IMG/VR virus record: IMGVR_UViG_3300022707_003685
Coordinates: 1-42,343 of that record
From: a virus
Strand: one strand, 5' to 3'
DNA: 42,343 nt
A program made the translations under genes and the position numbers. Positions 4,068 to 42,343 of this stretch are shown here, in pieces. Position 1 is the first letter of the stretch, and each line of letters opens with the position of its first letter. The notes beneath the pieces are model-generated. The model worked only from the letters and a program-made list of their open reading frames with translations, searched no databases and was not told where the DNA came from.

Positions 4068-4420
4068 AAAAGGTGGCGAAAGAGAAGGTGTTGGAAGTGA
4101 GGCAGGCGGTGCTTGACTTGGGGTTGGGGAAAATGTGGATAATAGCATGTTCGAGAAATTGCGAGTTTAAACATGGTCGCATGTCTCATGTCCGAGATAT
4201 GTCCGAGAAAGTTGGGCTCGAACATGGGGAAGGTGGCGAAAAGGTTAGGGAAATGGGGAAACATGTCTCATGTTCGAGATTTCTGGAAGAATAAGGTATT
4301 ATCTATCGCTGAAGCTGTATTAAAAGGAGCAGTGCGTCATGGCATATAGGAGAATACCCTATACTTTGTTGGACTTTCTCGAACATGGTACATGGATGCG
4401 CCCTCACCTGTGGATAACTC
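4068..4420. other. putative replication origin
   Basis: This gene-free stretch has two perfect DnaA boxes (TTATCCACA on the minus strand, 4134-4142 and 4409-4417). Between them are six copies of CATGTYCGAG: 4146-4158, 4187-4199, 4198-4210 and 4269-4280 direct, 4217-4226 and 4375-4387 inverted. AGGTGGCGAAA is repeated at 4071 and 4231. The first 230 bases are strongly purine-rich on the plus strand. The genome has a helicase but no DNA polymerase, so host-initiated replication here is reasonable. The iterons could instead be operators. Confidence 0.55.
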
Positions 4421-4808
4421 CTCTTTTTTCGTGACCCCGATCTTATGCTATCGCCAACCCCTCAAAGCGAGGCCACGTTGACTCAACAATTCAAAGCAAC
4501 AAGACTTAAGGCGCATGGATGCAGCGACTCAAAGGCTCAGGGATGAGCCGACTCTATATATGCACCCAGTCGCTACGAGCCTTAAAACCCAAGGTCCTAA
4601 TGCATTGCCTTGATGCAATGCGTCGCGTAGAGGGCATCCTCAGGCTTAAAACTCGCTTGAAAATTGAGTCATTATGAGATTGTGGCGTTGTGTTCGATCT
4701 GAGGGATTATTGGGTTTTGAATTTTTGGTGCGGGATGCGGCCTGTGGGGCGCAATGCCACCTTGTTACTTATCTTGCGTGAGTCAATGGATATGGATAGG
4801 TAAGGGAT
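4421..4808. other. non-coding region with hairpins
   Basis: No gene seen. Two perfect hairpins stand out: GGCTCA-GGGA-TGAGCC (4534-4549, GNRA-type loop) and GCATTGC-CTTGAT-GCAATGC (4602-4621). GTTGACTCAAC (4477-4487) is an 11-base palindrome. TGASTCA sites occur at 4479, 4665 and 4779. The stretch may belong to the origin or be a regulatory or RNA region. Confidence 0.5.
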
Positions 4809-4836
4809 AAAAAATGCCTCAGTGGTTAGCTGAGGC
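4809..4836 (-). terminator. intrinsic terminator of the 69-residue early gene
   Basis: On the minus strand GCCTCAG, a seven-base loop and CTGAGGC (4816-4836) are followed by A and six T (4809-4815). It closes the transcript of the gene at 4865-5074. Confidence 0.85.
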
Positions 4837-4864
4837 TTAGGTGAGATAGGATATGAATACCGCC

Positions 4865-5074
4865 TTAAGAAAGATAATCAATGGTTACTTCTACATCGTT
4901 ATAGAAGGTCTGGGAATCACGCTTCAGCATTTTTTCCATTGTATGTAGGTCAAAATTTTCAATGCCCACATTGTACCATGCACACATGCTCTGGAAGAGA
5001 TGTACTATAGCATTGGTGTAGTCTTGGTTAGATATGGATTGGTAAGGGCTTACTAAGTTATTGATACTGTTCAT
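4865..5074 (-). CDS. monocistronic early protein, 69 residues
   Basis: It starts at the ATG at 5074 behind AAGGAG (MNSINNLVSPYQSISNQDY...). A good promoter (5110-5138) and an intrinsic terminator (4809-4836) enclose this gene alone, making it the only early gene with a private transcription unit. The protein is acidic and has no recognised motif. Its position next to the origin and divergent control region suggests an immediate-early regulator or host-takeover protein; that is inference. Confidence 0.75.
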   Translation of the reverse strand: MNSINNLVSPYQSISNQDYTNAIVHLFQSMCAWYNVGIENFDLHTMEKMLKRDSQTFYNDVEVTIDYLS

Positions 5075-5109
5075 GTTATACTCCTTGGTTAGTGTGTTCG
5101 TCGCTCGCA

Positions 5110-5138
5110 TTTATAGTATCGCACAACGCACATGTAAA
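5110..5138 (-). promoter_or_regulatory. sigma70-like early promoter (P1)
   Basis: On the minus strand TTTACA (5133-5138) and TATAAA (5110-5115) are separated by 17 bases. GATACTA overlaps the -10, as at the two other early promoters. It drives the gene at 4865-5074. Confidence 0.75.
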
Positions 5139-5427
5139 CTTGAGCTTTATTTTTTTTAATTCATAAGTGCACGTAATCACTCACGATTCTCATTATGAGA
5201 TCCGACCCCATTGATGAGTCAATGGTCATAGGATGCCATGGTATGCCTTAGGGGGGAGGGGTCATGTAGAAGGGGGTGGGGGCCCCATGGTGAGATGGTA
5301 CGCGTGGGAGGAGTCCCCTCCTAGTATCGACCGACTCAATTATTCCCCCTTGCTTTGACTCACCGCTTCATGATATATTGATTCAATTCTTACAAAGTAC
5401 GTTCATGTTTTTTTTATTACCGTTGTT
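5139..5427. other. non-coding divergent control region
   Basis: No gene seen. It has a perfect hairpin CCATTGA-TGAG-TCAATGG (5208-5225), G-rich runs at about 5251-5282, and TGASTCA at 5215-5221 and 5356-5362. A possible plus-strand promoter, TTGCTT-N18-TATATT, lies at about 5350-5379 and could feed the terminator at 5428-5457. Confidence 0.45.
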
Positions 5428-5457
5428 GCCGTTAGTGAAGTCCCTAGCGGCATTTTT
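5428..5457 (+). terminator. intrinsic terminator, plus strand
   Basis: GCCGTTAG (5428-5435) and CTAGCGGC (5444-5451) pair over eight bases with one U-G, followed by ATTTTT. It stops plus-strand transcription just before the promoter at 5463. Confidence 0.75.
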
Positions 5458-5462
5458 CCCCC

Positions 5463-5491
5463 TTGACCTCTGACACAAGACCCCATATACA
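5463..5491 (+). promoter_or_regulatory. sigma70 promoter of the rightward control transcript
   Basis: TTGACC (5463-5468), a 17-base spacer and TATACA (5486-5491). The predicted transcription start falls at about 5498, on the ATG of the next gene. The preceding terminator insulates it from upstream. Confidence 0.75.
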
Positions 5492-5497
5492 TAGCTC

Positions 5498-5755
5498 ATG
5501 GAATACAGAGAGTTTAAACATGTTAAATATGTATCAGTTTTATCTCCGGATAAATCAACACACCTTTTTTTAGATGCAGACTTAGGTCACCTCATAGAGA
5601 TCAAAGCCCTCACTGAAGCCAGCGCCAAGATTCAGCTGCTCAAAGAGGCATTGTTAGACATAGCCCCTTGTCTGTGTATACTACCAGGGGTGAAGCATAA
5701 GTGTACTATAGCGCAAGAAGCCCTAGAAGCCCTAGAAGCCCTAGAATCCTTATAA
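5498..5755 (+). CDS. 85-residue protein, probably from a leaderless mRNA
   Basis: The ATG at 5498 coincides with the predicted start of transcription from the promoter at 5463-5491, and no Shine-Dalgarno is present. The protein (MEYREFKHVKYVSVL...) has a helical second half (ASAKIQLLKEALLDIAP) and three cysteines. It ends in EALEALEALESL, encoded by three perfect GAAGCCCTA units (5717-5743). The helix-Cys-'IAQEALE' pattern resembles unnamed small phage proteins. It precedes the tandem structured RNAs in the same transcript. Function unknown. Confidence 0.6.
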   Translation: MEYREFKHVKYVSVLSPDKSTHLFLDADLGHLIEIKALTEASAKIQLLKEALLDIAPCLCILPGVKHKCTIAQEALEALEALESL

Positions 5756-5796
5756 CCCCCTATACAAACATCCCCCATCCTGATATACATCTTCCT

Positions 5797-5953
5797 TGAG
5801 CAGTAAGTGTGCGAAGCTGTGGTAAGTTTGGTCAAGAAGCTGTGGTTTCCTGCCTCCCTGTTAAGAGCCACTGGATGCGCACTAGGGAATATTGAGTTCA
5901 CGAGACCTGTCTATTCAATCCTTCAGGTATCCCACTAGCGACGGGGCTGCTCA
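5797..5953 (+). ncRNA. structured RNA element, copy 1
   Basis: P1 pairs TGAGCAG (5797-5803) with CTGCTCA (5947-5953). P2 pairs GCTGTGG (5816-5822) with CCACTAGC (5932-5939) with one bulge. Between P1 and P2 lies a conserved internal loop (TAAGTGTGCGAA on the 5' side, GACGGGG on the 3' side). The distal part contains a 13-base block, 5869-5881, shared with copy 2, and a stem ATTGA/TCAAT. GAAGCTGTGG is repeated at 5835-5844. No open reading frame of note. I do not recognise an RNA family. Confidence 0.7.
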
Positions 5954-5994
5954 CTTTCCATTGACTGACACCAGCCCCCAGGATACATAAGATA

Positions 5995-6193
5995 TGAGAG
6001 AGTAAGTGTGTGAAGCTGTGGGATGCCTTGAGGCATGTTGGCGAAAGCCAGTCGATCGTACTCACTGGATGCACATGCAAGCCCTGGACTCGGAGTTGGC
6101 CCAGCAGAATTCGCGACCAGTTAAGTGCGGTCTAATCTGTTTGCAATTGGGACCTTGGTTAATCGAGACCCCCAGTAGCGCGGGGCTCTCTCA
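5995..6193 (+). ncRNA. structured RNA element, copy 2
   Basis: P1 pairs TGAGAGAG (5995-6002) with CTCTCTCA (6186-6193); P2 pairs GCTGTGGG (6015-6022) with CCCAGTAGC (6171-6179), with the bulge in the same place as copy 1. The internal loop is TAAGTGTGTGAA / GCGGGG. Distal hairpins are ATGCC-TTGA-GGCAT (6023-6036) and TGGC-GAAA-GCCA (6039-6050, GNRA loop). The shared block is at 6063-6075. P1 differs in sequence from copy 1 but pairs fully, which supports a selected RNA structure. Confidence 0.7.
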
Positions 6194-6365
6194 CTTTATT
6201 TATGGGGGTCGGCTGGGCTATGGTCAACAGCCACTAAAACCTCTAGGACTGAGCCATAGCGATGCCTAGAGTACCCCCAACCTTTCCCACTACTAAAGTC
6301 TTACCTTGACATCCCCATATTATCGCCAAACCATATTAAGGAACTATTTAATTTAGGAGCTTAAT
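6194..6365 (+). other. hairpin-rich leader of the exported fibre-like gene
   Basis: GGGGGTC (6204-6210) can pair with GACCCCC (6167-6173) in copy 2, competing with its P2. Further stems are GGCTG/CAGCC (6211-6232) and CTCTAGG/CCTAGAG (6241-6271). TTGACA (6304-6309) has no well-placed -10. An AGGAG site precedes the GTG at 6366. Confidence 0.5.
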
Positions 6366-12620: not shown

Positions 12621-13943
12621 ATGGAAATACAGATCCCCTATGAACCGCGTCCTTTACAACAAGATCTTCATAGAAATGTAAAGCGGTTCAATGTTATAGT
12701 GTGCCATAGGCGGTTTGGCAAAACCATTTGGTCAGTGAATGAGATCATAGCAAAATCTTTAGAGTGTCCTCATAAAAATCCTCAGTACGCTTATATCGCT
12801 CCCACTTACGGGCAAGCAAAGCGTGTGGCTTGGGATATGTTTAAAGATGCAACAGAGTGTTTCAGAAAAGTCAGGACTATCAATGAGGCTGAGCTAAGAA
12901 TTGATATCCAGCTTGATAAAGGCAGGCGCTTAAGATTCTTACTTCTTGGGGCTGAGAACCCTGATTCTTTAAAAGGGCTTTACCTTGACGGGGTAATTCT
13001 TGATGAATATGCCTTAATGTATCCTACGGTTTGGAGTGAGGTGATTAGGCCTACTCTTTCTGATAGGAGAGGCTGGGCTTGTTTTGTTGGTACTCCTAAG
13101 GGCGCGAACCATTTCAAAGATATATACGATGAGGCTATAAGAGAGGGAAACGAAGCTGATTGGTACAGGTGCCTTTATAAAGCAAGTGCAACGGATGTGA
13201 TTCACCCAGAAGAGATAAAAGCGTTAAAGCGTGAGTACACAAATTCTCCTGAATTATACGAACAAGAGTATGAGTGCGATTTTGGCGCAGCTCTTGTTGG
13301 GGCTTATTACGGCAAGCAAATGAAGGACGCTCAGGAGGCTGATCCTTGTAGGATAACTTCCGTTCCTTACGATAGGGGGTTTGCGGTATTCACAGCTTGG
13401 GATTTAGGCATTGATGACCATACGGCTATCTGGTTTTTCCAGTGGGTGGGTAGAGAATTAAGGGCCATTAATTACTATGAGAACAATGACTTCGAGCTTG
13501 ACCATTACGCTAAGTTTATCAAAGATACTGAATACAATTTCCAGTGCCACATCTTGCCTCATGATGCAGCGGCAAGATCTTTAGAAACAGGTATCACTAT
13601 ACAACAAAAACTTTGGGACTTAGGGCTTGGGAGAGCCGTGGTTATGGAAAAGTGTAACCCTGTAAACATGTTAGATGAGGTAAGGCGGCTTCTTTCGATG
13701 TGTTGGTTTGATAAAAATAAAACTGAGCAGGGCAGAAAGTGTCTTGAAAACTATGAAAGAAAATATGACACTAAGACGAAGAGGTTTTCTGGGATGCCTC
13801 TACATAACTGGGCGAGTCATGGGGCTGATGCTTTTAAAACATTTGCACAATACGGTAGAAGGTCCCAAACTGATTCTACATTTAGTATAAATCGGAACTT
13901 GCCGACAACTAGCATAACTGAATACGATATTTTTGGAGGATAG
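12621..13943 (+). CDS. terL: terminase large subunit
   Basis: 440 residues. The ATPase domain has a Walker A variant CHRRFGKT (28-35), Walker B VILDEY (125-130) and a coupling motif VGTPKG (156-161). The RNase H-fold nuclease has candidate metal ligands D261/D265-266 (AWDLGIDD), D315 (LPHDAA) and D403 (SHGADAF). TerL binds TerS at the procapsid portal, pumps DNA in and cuts it. The start lacks a clear Shine-Dalgarno and lies three bases after the previous stop. Confidence 0.95.
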   Translation: MEIQIPYEPRPLQQDLHRNVKRFNVIVCHRRFGKTIWSVNEIIAKSLECPHKNPQYAYIAPTYGQAKRVAWDMFKDATECFRKVRTINEAELRIDIQLDKGRRLRFLLLGAENPDSLKGLYLDGVILDEYALMYPTVWSEVIRPTLSDRRGWACFVGTPKGANHFKDIYDEAIREGNEADWYRCLYKASATDVIHPEEIKALKREYTNSPELYEQEYECDFGAALVGAYYGKQMKDAQEADPCRITSVPYDRGFAVFTAWDLGIDDHTAIWFFQWVGRELRAINYYENNDFELDHYAKFIKDTEYNFQCHILPHDAAARSLETGITIQQKLWDLGLGRAVVMEKCNPVNMLDEVRRLLSMCWFDKNKTEQGRKCLENYERKYDTKTKRFSGMPLHNWASHGADAFKTFAQYGRRSQTDSTFSINRNLPTTSITEYDIFGG

Positions 13944-34420: not shown

Positions 34421-34585
34421 TCAATCGCCTTGGTCCTTTGGTCCATAACTTTCCAATGCGCTTTTTAAATCATCAATTCTAATATTTAGTTCTTTCAAAG
34501 AATGAATATTGTGTGAATCCCCATCAATACAGAGCGCAACTTGCTCTAAAACTCTTATTAATGATGTCATTATTGTTGTGTTCAT
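34421..34585 (-). CDS. 54-residue hypothetical protein
   Basis: AAGGAGG precedes ATG 34585. MNTTIMTSLIRVLEQVALCIDGDSHNIHSLKELNIRIDDLKSALESYGPKDQGD ends at TGA 34421. Helical, acidic C-terminal half. No family. It follows a long inverted repeat in its leader. Confidence 0.65.
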   Translation of the reverse strand: MNTTIMTSLIRVLEQVALCIDGDSHNIHSLKELNIRIDDLKSALESYGPKDQGD

Positions 34586-34603: not shown

Positions 34604-34672
34604 GCCAGGCTCTTAGGAACAAAGAAGTTGATTGAATTGCGAGAGACAATCACTAAACCCTAAGAGCCCGGC
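34604..34672 (-). promoter_or_regulatory. 14-bp inverted repeat in operon leader
   Basis: GCCAGGCTCTTAGG (34604-34617) and CCTAAGAGCCCGGC (34659-34672) are complementary at 13 of 14 positions and enclose a 41-base loop. It lies between the stop of the SSB-like gene and the next Shine-Dalgarno. There is no T tract, so processing or mRNA protection is more likely than termination. Confidence 0.7.
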
Positions 34673-38285: not shown

Positions 38286-40055
38286 TTATCTCATCCCATA
38301 GTCTATATCTATTGTAGTGTCCAGTAATCCTAGGTAGCCCTGCGAGCCAAACCAGCGCCCTTTCCTAATTCTTAACCCATCAATTTTACTTTCTAACATC
38401 TTAAATAGGGGCCTTTTTGCCATGACTTTCCTTGGGGCGATGCCGTTTGACGTACACCACAGGGTGTAGCTCGTATATATAGATGAATAAGCAATCTTAA
38501 AGGCTTTGTTATCAATATCTTTAAATTCATAAGTGTCCTCAAAAAAATCAAGTTCTGGCATGTTATCAGTCTGGTATTCTTTGACAAGCTTCACTGAAAT
38601 CTCTGACTTGGTAAACCCGCCTTGTTTATGAAGCCTTTTATAAGCTTCCACTAAAAGGTTTATGATCCCAGAGGCTTCCTTTTCAATAATAATTTTATCA
38701 AGCTCAGCTATAGTGCTAGCGTTACTCTCCCCAAAATAGGCATCAAAGGGAATAATTAAAATTCTCCTGAAGAATCCTCCTGATGTATCACAGCTTTTAG
38801 GTAGTGAGTTACATGCTACCATGAACTTAGCCCTTGGCTTTATTTTATAAGGCTTTTGGTAAACAACCTTAGCGTTAAGAGACTCACCACTTGTCACCTC
38901 TTTAAACTCTTCACAATCATATAAAGCTTTCCCACTCTCAGCCTTGATATTAAACAATTTCCCTTGAAGAAGGGCTACTTGTTGGGGATCTCCAAGGTCT
39001 GAAATAGAGACAGATGAATAGTTATCATCTCCAATAAGAGCTTGGATTATTTTAAGAAATGTAGATTTCCCATTTGCCCCTGATTCTCCATATAAAAACA
39101 AAGCTTTATGCACCCAAAGCCTATCATTTGAAAGCCCATAGGCCACAAATTCTAGTAAAATATCTATTAGCTCTTGGCGGTCTAGAGTTATTTCCTTCAA
39201 AAATTTCTCAAACATGGGGGCCTTGGCATCTTTATCGTAGTCATAATCGAGCCTATACATAAAGGCCCACTCTTTTGAGTGAGGGAAGACCTCGCCAGTT
39301 TTAATATCTAAGACCCCGTTTTTGACATTTAGATATCCTGCAACCTTGTCCTCAATTTCATCTAAAAACCTTATATTAGTTCTTTTTATTTTCCCTGTAA
39401 ATTCTTTAACATGCATATTGGTAGGCTTCGGGTAGAGATTATCTTCTATAAACCCTGAAATACCTGTATTGTGCCACAAGGCCCAATGATTTTTCTTAGG
39501 TAGGTACTTATAAGTAGCAGCGTTATCTTCAACCGTAAAATATCCAAAATCTTGGTCGGCATGGGCTGCTAAATCCCCATACTCAGGCTTGCCATAGGCC
39601 AATGTACCATCTATGAGTCTGACCTGCCTAAACCCTGAATTTAAAGTAGCAATGGTAAGATCATTCTTTAAAGTAAGGGGAGTCACTAAAGAGTTGCCCG
39701 TGCAATTTGGCCCGCAGTCAAAGCCAAGGGCTTCAATTTGTTTGACCGTATAGGGCGCAGGGCTAACTTCTAATGCCCCTTGAATAATCTCATCAGTTTT
39801 GAATTTGTTGTAGGTCCCGTGCTTGGTCATGATCTCGTGAATATAGATCCAAGGCTCCTCGAAATGTATAACGATAGACAGCCAGGCGTTGAATTTTTTA
39901 TCTGATGAATCAATACCGTTTTTGTGAATTTCTTTTAAGAAGTGACATTTTTGAAGGACTGCTTCTTTGTGATAGTTATGGGTGTTAGGTGTTACATCTT
40001 TTAAGGCTAAAGACTTATCTTTGCCGTTCCCACTAGATGTCACTATGCCCCCCAC
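38286..40055 (-). CDS. P4/D5-type SF3 helicase without visible primase domain
   Basis: 589 residues from a GTG at 40055 behind AAAGGA. The D5_N-type region (YLNVKNGVLDIKTGEVFPHS, about 241-260) is followed by Walker A GESGANGKST (323-332), LFNIKAES (367-374), sensor FMVACNSLP (411-419) and FFRRILIIPF (428-437) with the arginine finger. The first 110 residues look like a PriCT-like helical segment. No prim-pol catalytic acids are visible and a stop closes the frame upstream. It is expected to form a hexamer that unwinds the origin. Confidence 0.88.
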   Translation of the reverse strand: MGGIVTSSGNGKDKSLALKDVTPNTHNYHKEAVLQKCHFLKEIHKNGIDSSDKKFNAWLSIVIHFEEPWIYIHEIMTKHGTYNKFKTDEIIQGALEVSPAPYTVKQIEALGFDCGPNCTGNSLVTPLTLKNDLTIATLNSGFRQVRLIDGTLAYGKPEYGDLAAHADQDFGYFTVEDNAATYKYLPKKNHWALWHNTGISGFIEDNLYPKPTNMHVKEFTGKIKRTNIRFLDEIEDKVAGYLNVKNGVLDIKTGEVFPHSKEWAFMYRLDYDYDKDAKAPMFEKFLKEITLDRQELIDILLEFVAYGLSNDRLWVHKALFLYGESGANGKSTFLKIIQALIGDDNYSSVSISDLGDPQQVALLQGKLFNIKAESGKALYDCEEFKEVTSGESLNAKVVYQKPYKIKPRAKFMVACNSLPKSCDTSGGFFRRILIIPFDAYFGESNASTIAELDKIIIEKEASGIINLLVEAYKRLHKQGGFTKSEISVKLVKEYQTDNMPELDFFEDTYEFKDIDNKAFKIAYSSIYTSYTLWCTSNGIAPRKVMAKRPLFKMLESKIDGLRIRKGRWFGSQGYLGLLDTTIDIDYGMR

Positions 40056-40121
40056 AAGATGTCCTTTATATGCTGTGCATTTTTTTAAGAGAGATTAAGT
40101 ATATGCTTGCCAGGTACAAGC

Positions 40122-40237
40122 TTGTCTAGGTATGTTGCAGACAGATAATGTTCTTTTTTAAGAGCCTCTAGTGTTGGACTCCGAATTTTTCACTAGATGT
40201 AGAGTCCATAAACCTACCCCGTTTATGGGCTTTTTTT
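40122..40237 (+). ncRNA. candidate sRNA on the strand opposite the early operon
   Basis: Promoter TTGTCT (40122-40127), 16 bases, GATAAT (40144-40149). The transcript would start at about 40157 and end at a strong intrinsic terminator (CCATAAAC 40206-40213, loop, GTTTATGG 40221-40228, seven T 40231-40237). The body can pair CTAGTG with CACTAG or GGACTC with GAGTCC, which are alternatives. About 80 nt. It is antisense to the SF3 helicase leader. Only the terminator is certain. Confidence 0.55.
40204..40237 (+). terminator. intrinsic terminator of the candidate sRNA
   Basis: A ten-base stem (GTCCATAAAC with GTTTATGGGC, one U-G) and seven T. It points rightward, against all genes around it. The minus-strand reading has no T tract after the hairpin. 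Confidence 0.85.
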
Positions 40238-40457
40238 ATTCAGGTAGTTTGTAATGGATTCCCTTAAGGACCTTAAGGCTTTCAACCATATGATGGTAAA
40301 CCCCTGATTGATTCACTTGAATGTCTTTAAGAGTAATTGCAATCATTGCTAAGAGTTCAACTACATCACGATTCCCCTCTGGGTTAGGCTCAGTCATTAG
40401 ATCACTTAGAACCTTTTCTACCTTGTCATGAATGTCGTCGTAGCTATAGTCTGTCAT
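40236..40457 (-). CDS. hypothetical protein, 73 residues
   Basis: MTDYSYDDIHDKVEKVLSDLMTEPNPEGNRDVVELLAMIAITLKDIQVNQSGVYHHMVESLKVLKGIHYKLPE starts at ATG 40457, overlapping the upstream TGA (ATGA). Acidic, helical, no family. Its stop touches the T tract of the opposing terminator. Confidence 0.7.
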   Translation of the reverse strand: MTDYSYDDIHDKVEKVLSDLMTEPNPEGNRDVVELLAMIAITLKDIQVNQSGVYHHMVESLKVLKGIHYKLPE

Positions 40458-42147: not shown

Positions 42148-42343
42148 CTCTCCCCTCCCATTTCTTCATTGCCTTAGATCCTAGGGCATTTTGTGCTCGT
42201 AGTCTTAACATCTTCGTAGTTTCTTCATAGTCTCTGTTCTCGGGCCTCACTTCTGTGTTCAATGCCCTGACGAACTCCAACGCCCCCTTCAATTCCAGAA
42301 TCAAAGCGTCTCTGTCTTTGATAGTTTCTTGGTCCTTTTTATA
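42140..42343 (-). CDS. early hypothetical protein, C-terminal part (begins at 360)
   Basis: This is the continuation of the gene that starts at 360. Reading leftward from the joint it adds RAQNALGSKAMKKWEGRDG and stops at TAA 42140-42142. Bases 42200-42343 duplicate codons already present at 1-144. It overlaps the next gene's ATG by eight bases. Confidence 0.8.
   Translation of the reverse strand, partial: YKKDQETIKDRDALILELKGALEFVRALNTEVRPENRDYEETTKMLRLRAQNALGSKAMKKWEGRDG
42200..42343. repeat. right copy of 144-bp terminal direct repeat
   Basis: Identical to 1-144; see the left copy. Removing one copy gives a circular map of 42,199 bp. Confidence 0.95.

Follow-up and report, generated by a model that had tools for sequence, protein, structure and literature searches.

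A candidate OOP-like antisense RNA gene opposite the leader of a phage primase-helicase gene

Introduction

What does a strong rightward terminator do in a gap among leftward phage genes? The question arises in IMG/VR virus record IMGVR_UViG_3300022707_003685, a single virus record whose full 42,343 nucleotides are the window analysed here. Genes of this phage run rightward from ~6 kb to ~33 kb and leftward in the remainder of the genome. Within the leftward block, the ORF of an SF3/D5-type primase-helicase (38286-40055) is separated from the next leftward ORF (40236-40457) by 180 bp (40056-40235), and an initial annotation had proposed that this gap encodes a small RNA (sRNA) antisense to the helicase leader. 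The analysis described below suggests that an OOP-like phage antisense sRNA gene, which would lower primase-helicase expression, is the best-supported reading of the locus, one that we hold with slightly better than even confidence.

Table 1. Features in and around the gap upstream of the primase-helicase gene
Feature	Position	Strand	Basis or remark
SF3/D5-type primase-helicase	38286..40055	-	GTG start; AAAGGA six bases ahead of start
Possible second target ACATCTAGTGGGAA, helicase codons 6-9	40027..40040	-	Complementarity
Weak candidate leftward helicase promoter TAGACA-N19-TATACT	40098..40128	-	-35 at 40128, -10 at 40103
Promoter-like site TTGCCA-N18-TATGTT	40107..40136	+	Best-scoring + strand site of the gap, top 1.7%
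Promoter-like site TTGTCT-N16-GATAAT (initial annotation)	40122..40149	+	Sequence match
Predicted sRNA, ~82 nt (~95 nt from first promoter)	40156..40237	+	Inferred from promoter plus terminator, and fold
Body hairpin TCTAGTG/CACTAGA	40167..40197	+	Not significant alone
CACTAGATGT, copy of helicase start-region sequence	40191..40200	+	10-base direct repeat
Intrinsic terminator	40201..40237	+	13-pair stem, 7-nt loop, T7 at 40231-40237

The phage genome and the gap

Bases 1-144 of the contig are identical to bases 42200-42343, and this 144-bp repeat of the ends indicates that the contig is in effect a complete genome, circular or permuted, of ~42.2 kb. Although the record is classed as linear, such ends show a genome that was assembled completely and as a circle. 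The connector protein is 41-42% identical to pelagiphage connectors, which points to a podovirus.

Apart from the stretch at 4-6 kb and the end of the contig, the leftward block has no ORF-free gap larger than 40056-40235. No leader ORF of at least 20 aa lies wholly within it, and three + strand ORFs in the vicinity of the terminator (38, 30, and 27 aa) were rejected as genes, with no convincing ribosome-binding sites seen by eye. The ORFs of 73, 86, and 110 aa upstream of the primase-helicase have no Pfam or PHROGs match. The primase-helicase itself has 589 aa, compared with mostly 750-840 aa in its distant relatives, and its N-terminus is ~200 aa shorter.

Two other places in the genome stand out. 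The region 4300-6300, which lies between leftward and rightward genes, is largely ORF-poor; it contains 9-bp tandem repeats AGCCCTAGA at 5710-5754 and a 21-bp direct repeat, AGTAAGTGTGNGAAGCTGTGG, whose copies are 199 bp apart (5802 and 6001) and are followed by a further common stretch, CACTGGATGC. This region is possibly a structured RNA, a control region, or an origin. In a 91-bp gap among leftward genes, an inverted repeat, GGCTCTTAGG...CCTAAGAGCC, occupies 34606-34670, and few segments of the genome fold better than the one that begins at 34585 on the - strand (z -3.5).

A terminator that opposes the leftward genes

The initial annotation had described a ten-base terminator stem followed by seven T. 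Both are present on the + strand, where the ten pairs form part of a longer stem with the sequence AGAGTCCATAAAC-CTACCCC-GTTTATGGGCTTT. In a scan of the whole genome this was the sole site at or below -13.7 kcal/mol with such a T-run, the only strong canonical intrinsic terminator; a hairpin at 13082 has a stronger energy, but its T-run is broken and it lies inside the terminase gene. Shuffled windows contain a mean of 0.47 such terminators, and 36% have at least one somewhere, so a single one in 42 kb is not rare. The chance of finding one in this particular gap is ~0.002 (0.47 x 180/42343). The existence of the terminator is therefore unremarkable; its placement in the gap is the rare feature.

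A terminator in this place need not have an RNA of its own. Under the main rival reading, which we regard as unlikely although it is the strongest of the alternatives, it would stop read-through from the rightward late genes across the leftward genes and so shield the upstream part of the early operon. The late genes end near 33-34 kb, no comparably strong + strand terminator is present from there to 40231, and the gap is the only large one on offer in that interval. On the other hand, transcription antisense to the early genes would run for 6 kb, through the helicase as well, before reaching this stop, and neither the promoter-like site nor the repeat of the helicase start described below would be needed for such a role.

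Promoter-like sites and the predicted RNA

The rightward promoter-like sequence that had been placed at 40122 is indeed found, and it has a better-scoring neighbour that begins 15 bases upstream (Table 1). A simple consensus promoter scan gave no excess over chance (15 vs 13.6); by matrix score, the best + strand site of the gap falls within the top 1.7% of the maxima for 105-nt intervals. The leftward candidate helicase promoter is not significant, since 11% of intervals score as well, and its -35 area is shared with the + strand promoter-like site. Because a promoter-like site and the best terminator of the genome both oppose the leftward genes, the phage probably makes an RNA of 80-95 nt; judged from the DNA, an sRNA would be the simplest reading of a promoter plus a terminator within one gap.

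The two strands differ in how well they fold. Compared with shuffled sequences, the + strand gives z -4.3 to -4.9 and the - strand z -1.1 to -1.5, and of 1641 sampled windows only one folds better than 40153-40240 on the + strand. The stem contains two G-U pairs, which help to explain this asymmetry and indicate an RNA of the + strand. The folding excess resides in the terminator. Alternative hairpins had also been claimed for the ~80-nt body, and the sequences for them exist: the loop of the TCTAGTG/CACTAGA hairpin holds GGACTC, which can pair with GAGTCC at 40202-40207 as an alternative or a pseudoknot. Yet the body without the terminator folds no better than chance (z -1.1 to -1.8), so these structures are not to be relied on. 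Rfam covariance models gave no match at the gathering score, and chance-level matches only.

The strand bias also bears on the idea that the hairpin, which comes right after the 73-aa gene's stop codon, serves the leftward mRNA as a processing or stability element. As the - strand fold is not clearly above that of shuffled sequence (z -0.5 to -1.5) and lacks a T-run, we consider this idea very improbable.

Pairing with the helicase mRNA

The claim that the RNA is antisense to the helicase leader holds only for a read-through mRNA that starts ahead of the helicase's upstream neighbour, and the ribosome-binding site is not covered. Full complementarity of the predicted RNA to such a leader stops ~100 nt short of the helicase start codon, and if the helicase is transcribed from its own promoter, for which there is the weak candidate, the overlap in cis vanishes.

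A second pairing route is offered by a 10-base direct repeat. The sequence CACTAGATGT in the body of the predicted RNA recurs at 40031-40040, and together with the preceding U-run it could pair with helicase codons 6-9 over 14 contiguous positions, two of which would be G-U. Of 62 start regions, that of the helicase has the best contiguous match (p 0.005 for this gene, 0.047 across all 62), whereas ranking by whole-duplex energy does not set this gene apart (p ~0.25). After both partners are opened, the net energy of the 14-pair site is ~-4 to -5.5 kcal/mol.

The CACTAGATGT repeat could instead be an operator recognized by a protein on DNA. More broadly, the repeats ACATCTAGTG and GCTTGNC(T)AGGTA and the palindrome ACAAGCTTGT might serve a phage protein as operators or origin elements, the hairpin being incidental or part of an origin on the primase side. 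Short direct repeats are present in the gap, and phage replication genes often lie beside origins. Against such a DNA-level control region, the G-U pairs favour the stem strongly as a + strand RNA, the T-run is exactly at the position that a terminator requires, and a search for an iteron array found none; we judge this explanation to be improbable.

Distant relatives with a similar layout

Searches of IMG/VR, INPHARED, and the genome collection gave no close relatives of the helicase or of its neighbour, and no DNA relatives came from INPHARED phages and plasmids; in IMG/VR, neither the stem nor the body was matched by exact pattern. The connector search yielded a near-identical contig (99.97% over 3.6 kb) that does not include the gap region. 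A 20-base identity to Iodobacter phage PhiPLPE (E = 2) was taken as chance.

Alignment-based searches reached ~15 distinct distant lineages with primases of ~27-36% amino acid identity, and widening the primase alignment led to the same set. In two of these lineages, L029 (the one with the best E-value) and L026/L027/L034, a strong terminator stands opposite the primase strand, 140-200 bp before the likely primase start. No terminator of that strength is present on the same strand within 500 bp upstream of the primase among the ~15 lineages; the sole same-strand match, in L029, is weak (-8.9) and inside the divergent gene. All fetched loci together contain 44 distinct terminators of this kind in 465 kb, both strands and redundancy included, and by our estimate well under one lineage with an opposite-strand terminator would be expected by chance, so that two such lineages are suggestive without amounting to proof. 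The genes on either side of the terminator are divergent in both lineages, unlike in the window, where it lies within a leftward block. This placement in divergent promoter regions also speaks against a terminator that simply stops read-through.

In L026/L027/L034 the likeness may extend further. The promoter-like site there is in the top 1.4%, the putative RNA of L027 holds GTAGTTATTCTG, which is complementary to the primase leader, and 12 bases could pair with the primase start region (0/500 shuffles). L029 has no significant antisense match to its primase start region (p 0.47). A motif related to GTAGTTATTCTG also precedes the divergent gene of L027, which makes a shared operator an alternative in this lineage; a repeated motif before both divergent genes is operator-like and adds to the case for a control region in the gap as well. 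Three related contigs carry the motif GCAGAATAACTNNNTAG repeatedly, within the region of the putative antisense RNA, ahead of the primase, and ahead of the divergent gene (in L063, at 2090 and 2171 on the + strand and at 1962 on the - strand), and it may be either a shared operator or an sRNA target site. That phages with this type of SF3 primase-helicase have repeatedly evolved an opposite-strand sRNA just before the primase, antisense to its start region and controlling translation in trans like a plasmid copy-number RNA, is a speculative generalization that we think doubtful.

An OOP-like model and its relation to known RNAs

Taken together, an OOP-like antisense sRNA is favoured by the terminator placement, the + strand structure bias, the top-1.7% promoter-like site, the 14-pair complementarity, and the layout in two distant lineages; chance-level body hairpins, a duplex energy p of ~0.25, the small net energy of the 14-pair site, a repeat that could be a protein operator, the divergent context in the relatives, and the lack of an Rfam match count against it. 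A promoter and an intrinsic terminator opposite a phage mRNA, the marks of an OOP-like RNA, are both found at the level of sequence, the promoter being the weaker part. We infer that host RNA polymerase would start rightward at 40107-40149 and stop at the terminator at 40237, giving an RNA of 82-95 nt. This RNA would be antisense to the leader that links the 73-aa gene to the primase-helicase in a read-through mRNA, and its second sequence would be complementary to the first helicase codons. Pairing would then reduce primase-helicase synthesis, through cutting of the leader duplex by RNase III, a block of initiation, or both, and the dose of the replication protein would be limited.

Phages are known to make cis-acting antisense RNAs that have a promoter and a terminator of their own, namely λ OOP, P22 sar, and λ aQ; OOP acts via RNase III, and sar blocks translation initiation (PMC12197685). 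The predicted RNA resembles these in being short, in having its own promoter and terminator, and in lying opposite an early phage transcript near a replication gene. It differs from OOP, whose target is cII rather than a primase or helicase; no sequence relation was found, and the RNA here is a prediction. The virulent phage PAK_P3 makes many antisense RNAs and sRNAs of ~100 nt (PMC4933390), a similar size, but those are mostly against structural genes, and no homology is known. The λ sRNA PreS (~88 nt) acts on replication, in trans on host dnaN with Hfq (PMC12197685). It is likewise a short phage sRNA tied to replication, but it is not antisense to a phage replication gene. Given OOP, sar, aQ, and the antisense RNAs of PAK_P3, the predicted RNA is not new as a kind.

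Beyond phages, the likeness is to a small counter-transcript of a replication-gene leader, with plausible control of dose. Plasmid antisense RNAs act on rep leaders, either by attenuation, as in pT181 and pIP501, or as in the CopA/Inc type. The present locus differs in having no sense-strand terminator between target and helicase and no gap-internal leader ORF of at least 20 aa. Because the sense (-) strand has no terminator in the gap, as pT181/pIP501 attenuation would require, the locus does not fit attenuation as it operates on plasmid rep leaders.

A phage replication enzyme would be a less usual target for such an RNA. If real, an antisense RNA directed against it would amount to plasmid-like dose control in a phage, and since opposite-strand terminators recur before distant primases, the idea can be tested at primase leaders in existing phage transcriptomes.
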